The translations under genes were made by a program, and so were the position numbers. From NCBI GenBank assembly GCA_016209155.1, contig JACQWU010000015.1, positions 7,012-12,975 of the forward strand: a stretch of 5,964 bases of DNA, written 5' to 3'. The stretch comes from Candidatus Desantisiibacteriota bacterium. Its GTDB lineage: Bacteria; JACRDZ01. Every line of letters begins with the position of its first letter. Position 1 is the stretch's first letter. Below are positions 383 through 5,335 of this stretch, one piece after another. The notes beneath the pieces were generated by a model that had not been told where the DNA came from, searched no databases, and worked only from the letters and a program-made list of their open reading frames with translations.

Positions 383-600
383 GTGTCAATGCTATTGACC
401 GTGCGGCCGTGTTTTACTGTCTACGCTTATACCATGCGGTCATTATCGCACCTATCCATAAAAGTACAACACTCGCAGGCTCAGGCACGACTGCTGTTGC
501 CGTTATGGCTTGGATCGATTGAATGCGCGCTTGGCCGTCCAGATTTTGTTTCATTGTTCGCTCTCTTATATGTTTGTTATGAAAACTCAATAATTCATAC
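383..600. other. G+C-rich island in AT-rich intergenic DNA
   Basis: By hand count, 391-540 is about 53% G+C, while the flanks are strongly AT-rich and the window as a whole is near one third. The island coincides with the minus-strand ORF that carries the PEP-CTERM signal. A perfect 6-bp hairpin GTCAAT-GCT-ATTGAC lies at its left edge (385-399). The sharp change in composition suggests DNA of different origin, or a leftover from a larger deleted gene with different codon use. No transposase or terminal inverted repeats are visible. Confidence 0.6.
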
Positions 601-602
601 AT
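414..602 (-). CDS. Short ORF ending in a PEP-CTERM sorting signal (probable remnant)
   Basis: The frame encodes 62 residues from ATG at 602, or 46 residues from the internal ATG at 554, which has an AAGAGAG stretch about 7 nt upstream and may be the better start. The C-terminus is a textbook PEP-CTERM tripartite signal: VPEPAS, then a hydrophobic segment (VVLLWIGAIMTAW), then basic YKRRQ and stop. In the known system this signal is recognised at the inner membrane by an exosortase (EpsH family), and carrier proteins normally have an N-terminal signal peptide and a large secreted domain. Neither is present: residues 1-33 are polar and resemble no domain I know, and an in-frame stop lies just upstream. 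The simplest reading is the orphaned tail of a deleted secreted protein. However, promoter-like elements at 633-661 lie correctly placed upstream, so expression of a mini-protein cannot be excluded. Confidence 0.45.
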   Translation of the reverse strand: MYELLSFHNKHIRERTMKQNLDGQARIQSIQAITATAVVPEPASVVLLWIGAIMTAWYKRRQ

Positions 603-605
603 AAT

Positions 606-682
606 ATGGGAAAATTAAAAACGGATGATTTAATTTAATCATATAAAAATAGGTATGTCAAGAAATTTTTCGAAAGATATTT
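606..682. repeat. Dispersed intergenic repeat, copy 1
   Basis: This segment aligns with 5015-5100 at about 80% identity over 60 bases: shared GATGATTTAATTT, then CATATAAAAATA or CACATAAAAATA, then TGTCAAGA and TTTTTC. A shorter stretch at 2512-2537 matches only its first 26 bases with three differences. After TTTTTC, copy 2 has about ten extra bases before similarity resumes at CGAAAG. No coding potential is seen. Both long copies preserve a minus-strand TTGACA box, so the repeat may be a mobile or duplicated promoter unit. Confidence 0.6.
633..661 (-). promoter_or_regulatory. Promoter-like sequence reading toward the PEP-CTERM ORF
   Basis: On the minus strand there is a perfect -35 box TTGACA (661-656), a 17-nt spacer and a -10 box TTAAAT (638-633, four of six matches). 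Initiation would fall near 626, about 24 nt before the ATG at 602. The arrangement is conserved at the same spacing in repeat copy 2 upstream of the sulfur operon, which strengthens the call. Activity is inferred only from the sequence. Confidence 0.45.
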
Positions 683-851: not shown

Positions 852-1127
852 ATGAATGAAAATATAGAATCAATAAGGGTTAATTTTATAAAAAATATTA
901 TAACAGAAGATATTGAAAACAAAAAAATAGAAAAAGTGATTACAAGATTTCCGCCTGAACCAAATGGCTATCTTCATATTGGTCATGCAAAAAGTATATG
1001 CCTTAATTTCGGTATTGCAAAAGATTTTGGCGGAATTTGCAATTTGAGGTTTGATGATACAAATCCTGTTAAAGAAGATATGGAATATATAAGTTCAATA
1101 AAAGAAGATGCCGTCAAATTATTTTGA
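852..1127 (+). CDS. glnS: GlnRS N-terminal fragment (91 residues)
   Basis: The start ATG has a good ribosome site (GGAG, 7 nt spacing), and the N-terminus aligns with known GlnRS starts (NFI-x-x-II-x-ED). The HIGH signature HIGH is at residues 42-45 and the glutamyl/glutaminyl-specific RFDDTNP at about 66-72, so the ATP-binding half of the active site is encoded here. The frame leaves the family after SIKED (residues 82-86). The last five residues, AVKLF, are mostly the downstream gene read in the wrong frame, although A-V-K may be native. It should yield an unstable truncated peptide if translated. Confidence 0.75.
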
Positions 1128-2508
1128 CAAGATGTACGATTATGCAGTTCAGCTTATAAATGCTGGACTTGCCTATGTCTGCGACCTGTCTGCTGATGAA
1201 ACAAGAGAATACAGGGGAACGCTTACCGCACCGGGAACTGAAAGCCCATACCGCAAAAGAACGATTGAAGAAAATCTGGATTTATTTTTACGTATGAAAA
1301 ACGGTGAATTTGGAGACGGATCAAAAGTTTTAAGAGCGAAAATTGATATGACATCTTCAAATATCAATCTGAGAGATCCTGTAATGTATAGAATAATGCA
1401 TGCCGATCACCCGCACACCGGGAATAAATGGTGTATTTACCCGACATACGACTGGGCTCATGGCATCGAGGATTCAATTGAAAAAATTACACATTCAATC
1501 TGCACATTGGAATTTGAAGATCACCGTCCTTTATACGACTGGTTTTTGGAACAGTTAAAAATTCATCATCCACGTCAGATAGAATTTGCAAGGCTGAATC
1601 TCACTTTTACAGTTTTAAGCAAAAGGAAACTCTTACAGCTAGTGGAAGAAAAATATGTGTCAGGATGGGATGATCCCAGAATGCCGACAATTTCGGGCTT
1701 AAGAAGAAGGGGATACAAACCTGAAATTATTAGAAATTTTTGTGAAAAAATCGGAGTTTCAAAAGCAAACAGCACAGTAGATTTCGCTCTTTTGGAACAT
1801 TGTATAAGAGAAGATTTAAATGTAACATCAAATCGATATATGGGAGTGCTTCGGCCTCTTAAGGTTGTAATTGAAAATTATCCAGATGAAAAAGAAGAAG
1901 AACTCACAGCGGTCAATAATCCAGCAGATCCAAATTCATCCTCGCGCGTTGTACCTTTTTCTAAAGTACTATATATTGAACAGGATGATTTTATGGAAAA
2001 TCCTCCTAAAGATTTTTATCGTCTTGCGCCTGGTCGTGAAGTGAGACTGCGTTATGCGTATTTCATTAAATGTATTAATGTTATAAAAGATTCAAATAAT
2101 AACATTATTGAGGTTCACTGCACATATGATCCTGAGACGAAAGGGGGAAATGCTCCTGACGGAAGAAAAGTAAAAGCAACCATGCATTGGGTTTCAGCAA
2201 AACACGCAAAAAAGATTGAAGTTAGATTATATGACAGACTTTTTACCTCTGAATTTGTGGAGAATGAAAAAGACAACTGGAAATCCTGCATAAACCCGAA
2301 GTCCTGTGAAGTGCTAAAAGAAAGCTTTTGCGAACCGTATATTGCAAATTTAAAATTGGATGAAAGATTTCAGTTCGAACGATTAGGATATTTTTGCGCC
2401 GACAGCAAAGACCATACAATTGAAAATCCGGTATTTAACAGAATTGTGCAATTAAAAGACGCATGGGAAAAAATAAAAAAGAAGATGGGAAATAGTATTA
2501 TAAATTAA
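1108..2508 (+). CDS. glnS: GlnRS C-terminal fragment (466 residues)
   Basis: This frame overlaps the first by 20 nt and contains everything after the deletion: the acceptor-stem binding region ([11 protein letters not shown], about residues 33-43), [18 protein letters not shown] (about 128-145), the signature loop VLSKR at 169-173, and the beta-barrel anticodon-binding domains (about 240-455, including EVRLRYAY and [15 protein letters not shown]). The ATG at 1108 has no separated Shine-Dalgarno and lies inside the junction codons, so it is probably not a native start; family homology begins at SNYFDKM (residues 3-9). Without HIGH it cannot bind ATP normally. Translation by reinitiation from the overlapping upstream stop is conceivable but not supported by any visible signal. 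Confidence 0.75.
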
Positions 2509-2622: not shown

Positions 2623-2850
2623 CTATTTTTTCATTACATATCCTTTAACAACACCATTTTCATTTTTTATTTCCAAAAAGTTTTCCCCGGACATTATGCA
2701 CCATGCCGGTAAATCTTTTATAAAACCCGGGTCATCTGCAAGGATTTCAAGAACTTCTCCGGATTTCATATTTTCAAGTTCCATTTTTGTTTTAATAACC
2801 GGCATTGGACAAAAAAGTCCGATGCAATCTAATGTTTTATTTATTTCCAT
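2623..2850 (-). CDS. tusA: TusA/SirA-family sulfur carrier
   Basis: The product has 75 residues, the usual length for this cytoplasmic family of two-helix, four-strand sulfur carriers. The N-terminal strand LDCIGLFCPMPVIKTK contains the CPxP signature (C14-P-M-P17); in TusA this cysteine carries the persulfide passed between sulfur-transfer partners. The middle (KSGEVLEILADDPGFIKDLPAWC) and the end (GVVKGYVMKK) are also typical. A second cysteine (C9) sits five residues before the active one. It is the last gene of the minus-strand operon, 35 nt after the DsrE2-like gene; the ribosome site is weak (AAGTGA about 6 nt upstream), suggesting dependence on upstream translation. TusA-DsrE2 pairs are common in sulfur-metabolising prokaryotes, so the partner is probably the neighbour. 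The specific acceptor is unknown. Confidence 0.88.
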   Translation of the reverse strand: MEINKTLDCIGLFCPMPVIKTKMELENMKSGEVLEILADDPGFIKDLPAWCIMSGENFLEIKNENGVVKGYVMKK

Positions 2851-2885: not shown

Positions 2886-3356
2886 TTATATGAAAAGATT
2901 TACTTTTGATTCCCTGGCTTCAGCAAGATAAGCAGCAGCACCGGCGAATTCGTTAACATCATCAATTAAATTTTCTTTTGTAAGCCCAAGAACTCCGCAA
3001 CTTGTTGTGCATGCTATATATTTCACATTAAGTTGTTTGGCAAGCTTCATGAGTTCATCAAGTGATGCCATTTTTGATTTTTTCATTAATTTTTTCATCA
3101 TCCATGGACCTAATCCGAACATATTTAATTTCGTAATTGGCAAACGGGAAGTACTCATAGTATTGAACATTTTTTGAAGAATATTTTGAGATTTAGATGT
3201 AGCGATTACAGATCGTTTAAGAATATTTAAGCCCCAGAAAGTAAAAAAAATAGTTACATCCATATTGCTTGCTGCCGCGGTAGTGGCAAGGGTGAAAGCT
3301 GCAATAGCTTTATCCATCTCACCGGAAAAAAGGATAATTGTCATTTTATCTTTCAT
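2886..3356 (-). CDS. DsrE/DsrF/DrsH-like (DsrE2-type) sulfur-transfer protein
   Basis: The product has 156 residues. It starts with KMTIILFSGEMDKAIAAFTLA, followed by a hydrophobic ATTAAASNMDVTIFFTFWGL stretch, and has the characteristic RLPITKLNMFGLGPWMMKKL block at about residues 71-90. This is the layout of the DsrE2 group (COG2210-like), in which a conserved cysteine in the last third takes part in sulfane sulfur transfer. Here the region reads IACTTSCG: C116 is the probable family cysteine and C120 an additional one four residues later, which could form a C-x3-C pair. Many relatives have no cysteine at the second position as I remember them. The start is supported by GAGGTG about 4 nt upstream. 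It lies between the micro-ORF and the TusA-like gene, forming a sulfur-relay module with the IscU operon. Functional assignment beyond the family is inference. Confidence 0.85.
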   Translation of the reverse strand: MKDKMTIILFSGEMDKAIAAFTLATTAAASNMDVTIFFTFWGLNILKRSVIATSKSQNILQKMFNTMSTSRLPITKLNMFGLGPWMMKKLMKKSKMASLDELMKLAKQLNVKYIACTTSCGVLGLTKENLIDDVNEFAGAAAYLAEARESKVNLFI

Positions 3357-3386: not shown

Positions 3387-3422
3387 TCATTCACAATAAG
3401 GGCAACTGCATCCTTTTTTCAT
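3387..3422 (-). CDS. Micro-ORF encoding an 11-residue CxCxxC peptide
   Basis: The reading is MKKGCSCPYCE then TGA. Its ATG overlaps the iscU stop as ATGA (3422-3419), and AAGGAGG lies 4 nt upstream, the strongest Shine-Dalgarno of the operon. Cysteines at 5, 7 and 10 make a compact metal-ligand-like cluster. It may be a translated micro-protein, or the stump of a small zinc-ribbon-like protein whose remainder has been lost; only 30 nt separate its stop from the next gene. Caution: AAGGAGG also encodes the Lys-Glu of the usual IscU C-terminal KEAK, so the ribosome site may be partly coincidental. Confidence 0.4.
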   Translation of the reverse strand: MKKGCSCPYCE

Positions 3423-3802
3423 TTTGCCTCCTTATGCTTATTTTGATAATCCTCAATAGCTCTATGGAGAGCATCTGCACCGAGGTTTGAACAATGCATT
3501 TTATTTGGCGGAAGCCCACCGAGTTCGGCTGCCACACTTTCGTTTGTTATTTTAAGCGCATCTTCAACTGATTTACCTTTAGCCATTTCTGAAACCATTG
3601 ATGAAACAGCAATTGCAGCACCGCAGCCAAATGTTTTAAATTTCACATCTTCAAGTTTATTATCTTTTATTTTTACATAAAAAGTCATCATATCTCCGCA
3701 GACAGGATTCCCAATTTCTCCTATTCCATCCGCATTAGTTATTTCACCGACATTTCTTGGATTTTTAAAATGTTCTAAAACTTTATCAGAATAAAATGCC
3801 AT
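3419..3802 (-). CDS. iscU: Fe-S cluster assembly scaffold IscU (NifU N-terminal type)
   Basis: The 127-residue protein matches IscU in length and along its whole sequence. IscU builds [2Fe-2S] and [4Fe-4S] clusters in the cytoplasm from iron and sulfur and hands them to apo-proteins. All ligands are present: C35 with D37 (NPVCGD), C60 (FGCGAAIA), and H103-C104 (KMHCS). LPPNK at 97-101 is the equivalent of the LPPVK motif bound by the HscA chaperone in proteobacteria. The end (EDYQNKHKEAK) matches known IscU tails, so the gene is complete. A good ribosome site AAGGAG is 6 nt upstream. It lies 26 nt downstream of the IscS-like gene, the normal partner order, although no iscA, hscBA or fdx gene is visible here. 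The function is confident; the sulfur source in this strain is the open question because the partner lacks its PLP lysine. Confidence 0.95.
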   Translation of the reverse strand: MAFYSDKVLEHFKNPRNVGEITNADGIGEIGNPVCGDMMTFYVKIKDNKLEDVKFKTFGCGAAIAVSSMVSEMAKGKSVEDALKITNESVAAELGGLPPNKMHCSNLGADALHRAIEDYQNKHKEAK

Positions 3803-3828: not shown

Positions 3829-4917
3829 TTATTTACCATGTTCATCCCTGTCATGATGATGATCATAATCCGTACCAGGTCCTGCTGCCTGCCTGGTGCC
3901 TGTTTTTAAAAAATATGCATACAACGGAGACATATCTCTTAATTTTTTTACAATCAACGGAAACTCCTGAAGAATATAATCAACATCATCAGGAGAATTA
4001 TATTTCGAAAATGTCATAAGCACTGAACCCTGCGCTATTGCAGTATCAACTTTTATGGCTGATAATACATGCGACAGCTTAAGCGCCTTTGATGTACAGG
4101 CTGAACCGCTTGTTACGTTAACTCCGGCATCATCTAATAAAAGCAGCATACCTTCACCTTCAACAAATTCAACCGAAAAATTAACATTCCCGGGAAGACG
4201 TTTTAAATTATGCCCATTGAGATATATGTGTTCAATTTTATTTGGAAGTTCTGCAATTAATCTGTTTCTTAGGAGAACTATTTTTTTATTATTTTCTTCC
4301 ATTTCGCTTTTTGCAATTTCACATGCTTTACCAAAACCTACTATGCCTGGAATATTCTCTGTTCCTGCACGACGCCCGCTTTCTTGAATCCCTCCATCAA
4401 TCTGAGGAATAGCCCTCACACCTTTTTTTATATAAAGCGCGGCTGCACCTTTTGGGCCATAAATTTGAGAACTTGATAAACTTAATAAATCCACTCCCAT
4501 TTTATACACATCAATTGGTTCAAGTCCTACTGTGCATACCGCATCCGTATGAAGCAAAATATTTTTTGCATGCACAATTTTTGATAATTCTTCAACATTC
4601 TGAATTGTTCCAATTTCAGGATTTGCATGTTGTATTGAAACCAATATCGTATCATTTCTGATTGCTTTTTCCAGTTCACCTGATGAAACTAAACCATATT
4701 TATCTACAGGAAGATATGTGATTTCAAAGCCTGATGACTGCTCCAATCTTTTTGCAGAATAAAGCACAGAAAAATGTTCTATACTTGAAACGATTATATG
4801 TTTACCTTTTTGTTTATATGCATCTGCTGCACCTTTAATTGCAAAATTATTTGATTCGGAACCGCAGGATGTAAAATAGATTTCACTCGAATTTGCATCC
4901 AGATAAACTTGTTTCAT
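3829..4917 (-). CDS. iscS: IscS/NifS-like protein lacking the PLP lysine, with an internal N-terminal deletion
   Basis: The 362 residues belong to the class V aminotransferase fold. Normal family members use PLP on a lysine to pull sulfur from cysteine. Retained: ESNN (about 21-24), the EH pair at 47-48, D125 in HTDAV, GRRAGTEN (181-188) and the persulfide cysteine C274 in SGSACTS. Altered: the usual H-K of the S-H-K-x-x-G-P-K-G motif reads S150-Q151 (SSSQIYGPKG), the usual Gln of HTDAVQ is C128, and the late arginine motif reads GSVLMTFSKY. Loss of the Schiff-base lysine should abolish desulfurase activity; Archaeoglobus fulgidus IscS has the same kind of change. In addition MKQVYLDAN runs straight into SSEIYFTSCG, skipping about 53 residues present in NifS (the ATTP and GNPSS region) without breaking frame. 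The tail ends in a His-rich DYDHHHDRDEH (350-360), possibly metal-binding. The start matches family N-termini; its ribosome site is weak (GGGA, 9 nt). Confidence 0.85.
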   Translation of the reverse strand: MKQVYLDANSSEIYFTSCGSESNNFAIKGAADAYKQKGKHIIVSSIEHFSVLYSAKRLEQSSGFEITYLPVDKYGLVSSGELEKAIRNDTILVSIQHANPEIGTIQNVEELSKIVHAKNILLHTDAVCTVGLEPIDVYKMGVDLLSLSSSQIYGPKGAAALYIKKGVRAIPQIDGGIQESGRRAGTENIPGIVGFGKACEIAKSEMEENNKKIVLLRNRLIAELPNKIEHIYLNGHNLKRLPGNVNFSVEFVEGEGMLLLLDDAGVNVTSGSACTSKALKLSHVLSAIKVDTAIAQGSVLMTFSKYNSPDDVDYILQEFPLIVKKLRDMSPLYAYFLKTGTRQAAGPGTDYDHHHDRDEHGK

Positions 4918-5041
4918 GGTTAACTGTCCCGTCCTAAAATAATTGACAACTTTTGTTACTCTGAATTTGTTTCAGAGTCTTATAAACAGATGCAGAAATA
5001 AAAAATAAAATAAAATGGTAAAATCAAAATTGAATGATTTA
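4918..5041 (-). promoter_or_regulatory. Leader of the Fe-S/sulfur operon with a perfect hairpin
   Basis: If transcription starts from the promoter at 5042-5070, the leader is about 118 nt. It contains a perfect 8-bp stem ACTCTGAA/TTCAGAGT (4958-4965 with 4971-4978, 5-nt loop). No T-run follows on either strand, so it is not a standard terminator; mRNA protection, translational control or a protein operator are possible. Near the start codon the leader reads GGACGGGACAG with no good Shine-Dalgarno. No IscR-type operator was recognised. Confidence 0.4.
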
Positions 5042-5100
5042 ATTTGACCACATAAAAATATGGTTGTCAAGAGGTTTTTCTGCTGATTTGCGAAAGTATT
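5015..5100. repeat. Dispersed intergenic repeat, copy 2
   Basis: This is the partner of 606-682, with 48 of 60 aligned bases identical; both retain GATTTAATTT, CATAAAAATA (CATATAAAAATA in copy 1) and TGTCAAGA. It has about ten additional bases (5081-5090) before the shared CGAAAG. It sits upstream of the minus-strand operon, and just left of the decayed cupin gene. Confidence 0.6.
5042..5070 (-). promoter_or_regulatory. Probable sigma70-type promoter of the Fe-S/sulfur operon
   Basis: On the minus strand there is a perfect TTGACA (5070-5065), a 17-nt spacer and TCAAAT (5047-5042, four of six). The same boxes and spacing are conserved in copy 1 of the repeat although the surrounding bases differ, which argues for selection on promoter function or for recent duplication. 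Initiation is predicted near 5035. Confidence 0.5.
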
Positions 5101-5141: not shown

Positions 5142-5335
5142 AATCATTTTTCGCAAGTCACAAATTTAGTCGACTTAGTGGATTATCAGGAAGGGGCTAT
5201 AGTGAGCCTAACGTTAATTGACAAAAAACAGGGACGGTAATATTGTTCGCTTTTGATGAAGGGCAGGGATTGAGTGAACATACTGCACCGTTTGTAAAGA
5301 AATTTAAAATGATTTTAACAATGATACGCTCATAA
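5142..5335 (+). pseudogene. Decayed cupin-domain gene (frameshift plus internal deletion)
   Basis: Two frames read together give a small single-domain cupin of the kind of about 100-115 residues with a beta-barrel metal or ligand site. Frame one (5142-5237) gives TNLVDLVDYQEGAIVSLTLI then DKKQG and ends at a TAA (5238). Frame two (from 5237) gives VILFAFDEGQGLSEHTAPF, then VKKFKMILTMIRS and TAA at 5333-5335. A single lost base between GGA and CG (near 5234) restores the join as KKQGTVILF. Intact relatives have about 40-45 residues, including the second cupin motif, between HTAPF and the terminal F-K-M-L-L-T-M-I-R. Those residues are missing here, so the barrel cannot form. An in-frame TGA (5139-5141) also interrupts any extension to the ATG at 5112. 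It is non-functional; the original role is unknown. Confidence 0.75.

Follow-up and report, generated by a model that had tools for sequence, protein, structure and literature searches.

In E. coli, active IscS loads TusA. According to the summary given in PMC7585200, IscS of A. fulgidus has no desulfurase activity and its cysteine ligates the cluster on IscU, and IscS1 of Methanosarcina acetivorans, which was insoluble as a recombinant protein, is without the catalytic lysine and is paired with an IscU. An IscS without the PLP lysine (here called Lys-less) beside IscU is thus already known in principle from A. fulgidus and has been suggested for M. acetivorans IscS1. When iscS is mutated in E. 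coli, IscU can be supplied from sulfide (PMC13015791), which the SMS scaffold can use as well (PMC12192291). The minimal ISC system (MIS) was defined with a working cysteine desulfurase and a scaffold (PMC12192291). Whether the Fe-S clusters of anaerobes receive their sulfur from cysteine or from inorganic or persulfide sulfur is an open question. Until now the A. fulgidus IscS has been an archaeal oddity; proteins of the same kind occur in many bacterial phyla, as described below.

Organization of the locus and active-site residues

The window, i.e. the whole stretch of 5,964 nucleotides analysed here, carries the following features of the iscS locus.

3829..4917, minus strand: iscS homologue without the PLP lysine, 362 aa in the assembly, against about 390-415 aa in relatives
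4890..4905, minus strand: junction at which about 52 internal codons are missing in comparison with all relatives (alignment)
4534..4536, minus strand: Cys128 after HTDAV, replacing Gln183 of the E. coli numbering (translation, residue scoring)
4465..4476, minus strand: SSSQ replacing S-[GA]-H-K, with Gln151 at the position of the Schiff-base lysine, E. coli K206 (translation, alignment)
4096..4098, minus strand: Cys274, the conserved persulfide/ligand cysteine (C328), in the loop SGSACTSKALK
4021..4023, minus strand: Leu299 replacing the substrate-carboxylate Arg354 (translation, residue scoring)
3829..3890, minus strand: C-terminal AGPGTDYDHHHDRDEH tail, common to the subclade of the window protein (alignment)
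3419..3802, minus strand: iscU (NifU_N / NifU_clost), directly downstream of iscS, with the three cluster cysteines and the Asp all present
3387..3422, minus strand: stub MKKGCSCPYCE of 11 codons, overlapping the iscU stop and lying between iscU and dsrE2
2886..3356, minus strand: dsrE2 (DsrE2 sulfur carrier family), carrier Cys present in every aligned row that reaches the site
2623..2850, minus strand: tusA, CPMP motif intact (FCPMP; profile match, alignment)

Based on a Pfam search, the window ORF encodes a class V protein of the IscS/NifS type (206 bits for PF00266, against a gathering cut-off of 21.5). The equivalog cut-offs of TIGR03402 (415 vs 531 bits) and TIGR02006 (331 vs 643 bits) were both missed, to which the truncation of the ORF contributes. 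The active-site segment reads LSSSQIYGPKG, the codon of Gln151 being 4467-4465, and translation and alignment with relatives confirmed the preliminary description in that no lysine is present at the PLP-lysine position. The Cys in place of Gln after HTDAV and the altered late arginine motif, both reported there, were also found: the position of the SIRFSLG motif, which includes Leu299, reads SVLMTFS. The protein is without the PLP-contacting Gln and His, besides the missing lysine and substrate arginine. The persulfide cysteine (Cys274, in the context TSGSACTSK), the EH pair (as IEH) and the adjacent conserved iscU (3802..3419) had been described as retained, and they are. The window IscS has the features of the A. 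fulgidus type, namely no Lys, a kept Cys and an adjoining iscU, and in its Cys loop residues 331 and 334 are both Lys, which is specific to the clade.

A sequencing error at the active-site motif was considered and rejected. Substitutions of the same kind (GSQFYGPKG, GPQFHGPKG and similar) occur in relatives that share 66-73% identity with the window protein, so that an error, judged unlikely from the start, is excluded in practice.

Profile searches of the window gave the same-strand order iscU, dsrE2 and tusA after iscS. The stub between iscU and dsrE2 has as its counterpart in relatives a double-zinc-ribbon-like protein of 55-74 aa with about 10 cysteines (CxCPxC...CxxC...CxxC...CPxC), which matched the double zinc ribbon family weakly, below the cut-off. 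The corresponding ORF of Elusimicrobia locus L042 is L042:6701-6883, with equivalents in L043-L045, L047, L048, L050, L051, L053 and L055-L057; in the neighbourhood comparison of 52 Lys-less and 78 Lys-bearing iscS genes it was found near the Lys-less ones only.

Truncation of the window copy and quality of the assembly

The window ORF had initially been taken as intact, which did not hold. Alignment revealed that about 52 residues are missing right after MKQVY(LD), a gap present in none of the relatives, and the Aminotran_5 profile was matched by the ORF only from profile position 56. A search of the rest of the assembly did not recover the missing N-terminal piece of iscS, matching paralogues only. 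The assembly consists of 352 contigs with an estimated completeness of 78.8%, and further genes are broken in it. The loss of about 10 codons and of the frame in rpoB (contig C276) is apparently bounded by two AGAGC pentamers; what is missing was deduced from relatives. The glnS gene (window 852-2508, plus strand) is in two frames, split near 1108-1127 by a loss of about 10 codons. A cupin-family gene upstream of iscS (window 5150-5300, plus strand) is frameshifted and truncated, its homologue upstream of iscS in L042 being intact, and contig C212 carries an IscS-like gene broken into pieces. The losses in glnS and rpoB suggest microhomology deletions in the assembly. The cell cannot do without rpoB, and the breaks, judged gene by gene, were therefore read as artefacts, probably of assembly or of whole-genome amplification. 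Because such small microhomology deletions and frameshifts, including that in the essential rpoB, occur in the same genome, the gap of about 52 residues in iscS is probably an artefact as well, and the gene is probably full length in the living organism.

Distribution, phylogeny and fold of Lys-less IscS proteins

Sequences were sampled by similarity to the window protein. Lys-less proteins with 66-73% identity to it were identified in Elusimicrobia, WOR-3, Endomicrobia, Latescibacterota and Deltaproteobacteria, and remoter Lys-less relatives in Aminicenantes, Acidobacteria, Solincola, Zixibacteria, Pedosphaera and Deferribacteraceae; the lysine is missing in all of these. A tree built from 109 rows placed the bacterial Lys-less proteins in one clade spanning many phyla (34 rows, SH-aLRT 99); nearby, a second Lys-less clade united Geoglobus and Ferroglobus with L003, another IscS of the window genome (5 rows, support 100). 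As to one joint clade of the bacterial and the A. fulgidus-type groups (support 14), or a single origin, the trees speak neither for nor against.

Residues were scored, in E. coli numbering, over 130 sequences, 78 Lys-bearing and 52 Lys-less. The Lys206-bearing set had His205 and Arg354 in 78/78 and Gln183 in 76/78, while Arg354 occurred in 0/51 scorable Lys-less sequences. In the Lys-less set Lys206, Arg354, Gln183 and, in most, His205 were lost together, and the position of Lys206 was occupied by Gln, Asp, Val, Asn, Arg, Thr and other residues. Cys328 was kept in 51/51 scorable Lys-less sequences, Asp180 and His104 were each present in 52/52, and Thr243 was nearly invariant. Within the Cys loop, position 331 is Lys, Arg or Asn in Lys-less proteins and mostly Gly in Lys-bearing ones, and position 334 is Lys in 80% of the former and Glu or Asp in the latter. 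The five pairs with usable dS gave dN/dS values of 0.06-0.30. A unique local mutation or decay was rejected for the family on the basis of the clade, the residue conservation and dN/dS.

The AlphaFold model of the Elusimicrobia relative L042 had a mean pLDDT of 87.8, with low pLDDT in the Cys loop. The best Foldseek matches of this model were the A. fulgidus IscS structures 4r5f and 4hvk (TMt 0.96). The former is the D199K mutant of A. fulgidus IscS, and the mutation was visible in the sequence alignment too. Judged from its sequences, the Lys-less IscS is a conserved family which has lost K206 and R354 and has kept the fold, C328 and the link to IscU. With both the Schiff-base lysine and the substrate-holding arginine gone, such proteins would not be expected to desulfurate cysteine.

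A His/Glu-rich C-terminal tail, AGPGTDY[EHD]n, was observed in 15/52 Lys-less and 0/67 Lys-bearing IscS proteins. The tail-bearing loci are the window, L012, L041-L048, L051, L053, L054, L057 and L151. The tail might bind metal.

Gene neighbourhood and Fe-S gene content

TusA and/or DsrE2 genes were located within 3 kb (<=3 kb) of 28/52 Lys-less but of 0/78 Lys-bearing iscS genes, the flanks differing in length between loci and the Lys-bearing set taking in loci from the same genomes as the Lys-less ones (Fisher p ~2e-14, relatedness ignored). The linkage recurs in the archaeal type, as in the order thiI-tusA-iscS-iscU of Geoglobus, and in the second Lys-less copy of the window genome (L003, L099:2126-3277, contig C350), which is of the A. 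fulgidus (Asp) type and adjoins tusA. Neither gene was present within 3 kb of the other 24/52 Lys-less genes, the Endomicrobium and Aminicenantes lineages among them, so not every such locus would encode a TusA/DsrE2 relay. The CPxP cysteine was present in 28/28 aligned TusA proteins and the three cysteines in 23/23 IscU proteins; the carrier cysteine of DsrE2 was found in 16/17 rows, the remaining row stopping short of the site.

In 18/30 Lys-less genomes the sole NifU_N (IscU) gene adjoins the Lys-less IscS. No match to SufB/D was obtained in 30/33 genomes examined, including all 18 with a sole IscU, and several of these genomes (G014, G045, G059, G209, G213 and G345) are 93-100% complete. 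An orphan Lys-bearing IscS is also present in the bacterial Lys-less genomes examined (L001 in the window genome), adjoining in some genomes genes which read, by eye from the starts of their translations, as mnmA, nadA or Rrf2. Strong IscS matches in the Geoglobus genome were of the Asp type only.

Comparison with described systems

A. fulgidus IscS 2 (PDB 4EB5, 4EB7, 4HVK, 4R5F) shares the fold (TMt 0.95-0.96), is likewise without Schiff-base lysine and substrate arginine, has IscU as a partner and retains the Cys loop with Lys at 331; its Archaeoglobales relatives also have tusA beside iscS-iscU. The alignment and tree proposed in the preliminary description bore out that the lysine is missing in both proteins, but the archaeal one has Asp at this position, not Gln or another residue, and belongs to a separately supported branch. 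It also differs in having no His tail, and no DsrE2 was found beside its gene. That the window protein is a bacterial counterpart of this desulfurase-negative IscS, as had been supposed, is strongly supported by conservation, tree, gene neighbourhood and predicted fold. M. acetivorans IscS1, compared by description only, is similar in its reported lack of the lysine and its IscU partner, as summarised in PMC7585200.

The IscS-IscU-TusA hub of E. coli, for which a structure of the IscS-TusA complex exists (3LVJ), comprises the same three protein families. In the Lys-less loci, unlike in E. coli, the IscS adjoining TusA has no catalytic lysine, and because of this any flow between TusA and this IscS would have to run towards the Lys-less IscS or not at all. 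The MIS resembles the locus in consisting of a minimal desulfurase-type protein and a scaffold, with no chaperone or ferredoxin genes in the operon (PMC12192291); it has by definition a working desulfurase, whereas key residues are missing in the Lys-less IscS. In the literature searched, outside which most subscription papers lie, nothing relevant was found on a bacterial Lys-less IscS clade or an IscS-IscU-DsrE2-TusA operon, nor any description of the TusA/DsrE2 linkage or the small Cys-rich component. In that literature, the operon with TusA/DsrE2 and the bacterial clade that carries it thus appear to be undescribed.

Proposed role of the Lys-less IscS

The loss of the desulfurase residues, with the scaffold-touching cysteine kept, suggests that these cells may feed sulfur to Fe-S clusters in another way. 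With moderate confidence we read the Lys-less IscS as a catalytically retired protein which docks on IscU and whose cysteine serves as persulfide acceptor and/or cluster ligand, with TusA/DsrE2 or sulfide as the supply. By analogy with A. fulgidus, the ligand would be one to the nascent [2Fe-2S] cluster. TusA and DsrE2 would pass persulfide to this cysteine, the reverse of the E. coli direction, and could themselves be charged by the separate Lys-bearing IscS of the cell or from sulfide or polysulfide. At loci without linked TusA/DsrE2, sulfide or an unlinked carrier would have to serve. The earlier suggestion that sulfide or TusA/DsrE2 replaces cysteine as the sulfur source is favoured by the linkage (28/52 vs 0/78) but not by the retention of the orphan Lys-bearing IscS, owing to which sulfur could still derive from cysteine indirectly. 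More tentatively, and as a possibility we hold to be rather less than even, the IscU of a wide range of anaerobic bacteria may be fed through a reversed TusA/DsrE2 relay, from the carriers to a non-desulfurating IscS, forming a distinct Fe-S system with its own zinc-ribbon component.

Alternatively, the Lys-less IscS could be a structural cap or ligand donor only, with free sulfide entering IscU and TusA/DsrE2 serving another, co-regulated pathway. A. fulgidus IscS was proposed to give just a ligand (as summarised in PMC7585200), the IscU of E. coli is supplied directly by sulfide when IscS is missing (PMC13015791), and the 24/52 loci lacking a nearby TusA/DsrE2 fit this; the specificity of the linkage for the Lys-less class (0/78 Lys-bearing) and its reappearance in the archaeal type and in the second copy of the window genome make it somewhat unlikely. 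A putative residual use of PLP, held non-covalently or as an external aldimine, with some desulfurase or other PLP activity, is less probable again. No Lys-less sequence has lost the PLP-ring contacts Asp180 and His104, and Thr243 is almost always kept, which would permit non-covalent PLP or a PMP-like role, but Arg354, Lys206, Gln183 and mostly His205 were lost together, the A. fulgidus protein is reported in the summary of PMC7585200 as having no desulfurase activity, and a D199K structure of it (4r5f) exists.

Very improbable, finally, is that the window copy is a decaying pseudogene whose motif changes reflect decay. The loss of about 52 internal codons, the neighbouring small ORF cut to 11 codons and the broken glnS and upstream cupin genes would agree with decay, but the essential rpoB of the assembly is broken likewise, which points to artefact, and intact full-length relatives under purifying selection conserve the same substitutions. 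The Lys-less genes from Endomicrobia, Elusimicrobia and others offer a defined set with which one can directly test where an IscU system independent of a desulfurase gets its sulfur.

Other features of the window and its genome

In the RpoB tree the window genome groups with G001-G003, on a branch adjoining Deltaproteobacteria, Thermodesulfovibrionia and Deferribacteraceae. An intergenic repeat of about 70 nt is present at window 601-671 and 5010-5080, the two copies being 80% alike, and has at least 20 copies in the genome. A short frame on the minus strand (window 414-602) ends in a PEP-CTERM-like sorting signal (VPEPASVVLLWIGAIMTAWYKRRQ) and is probably a gene fragment.
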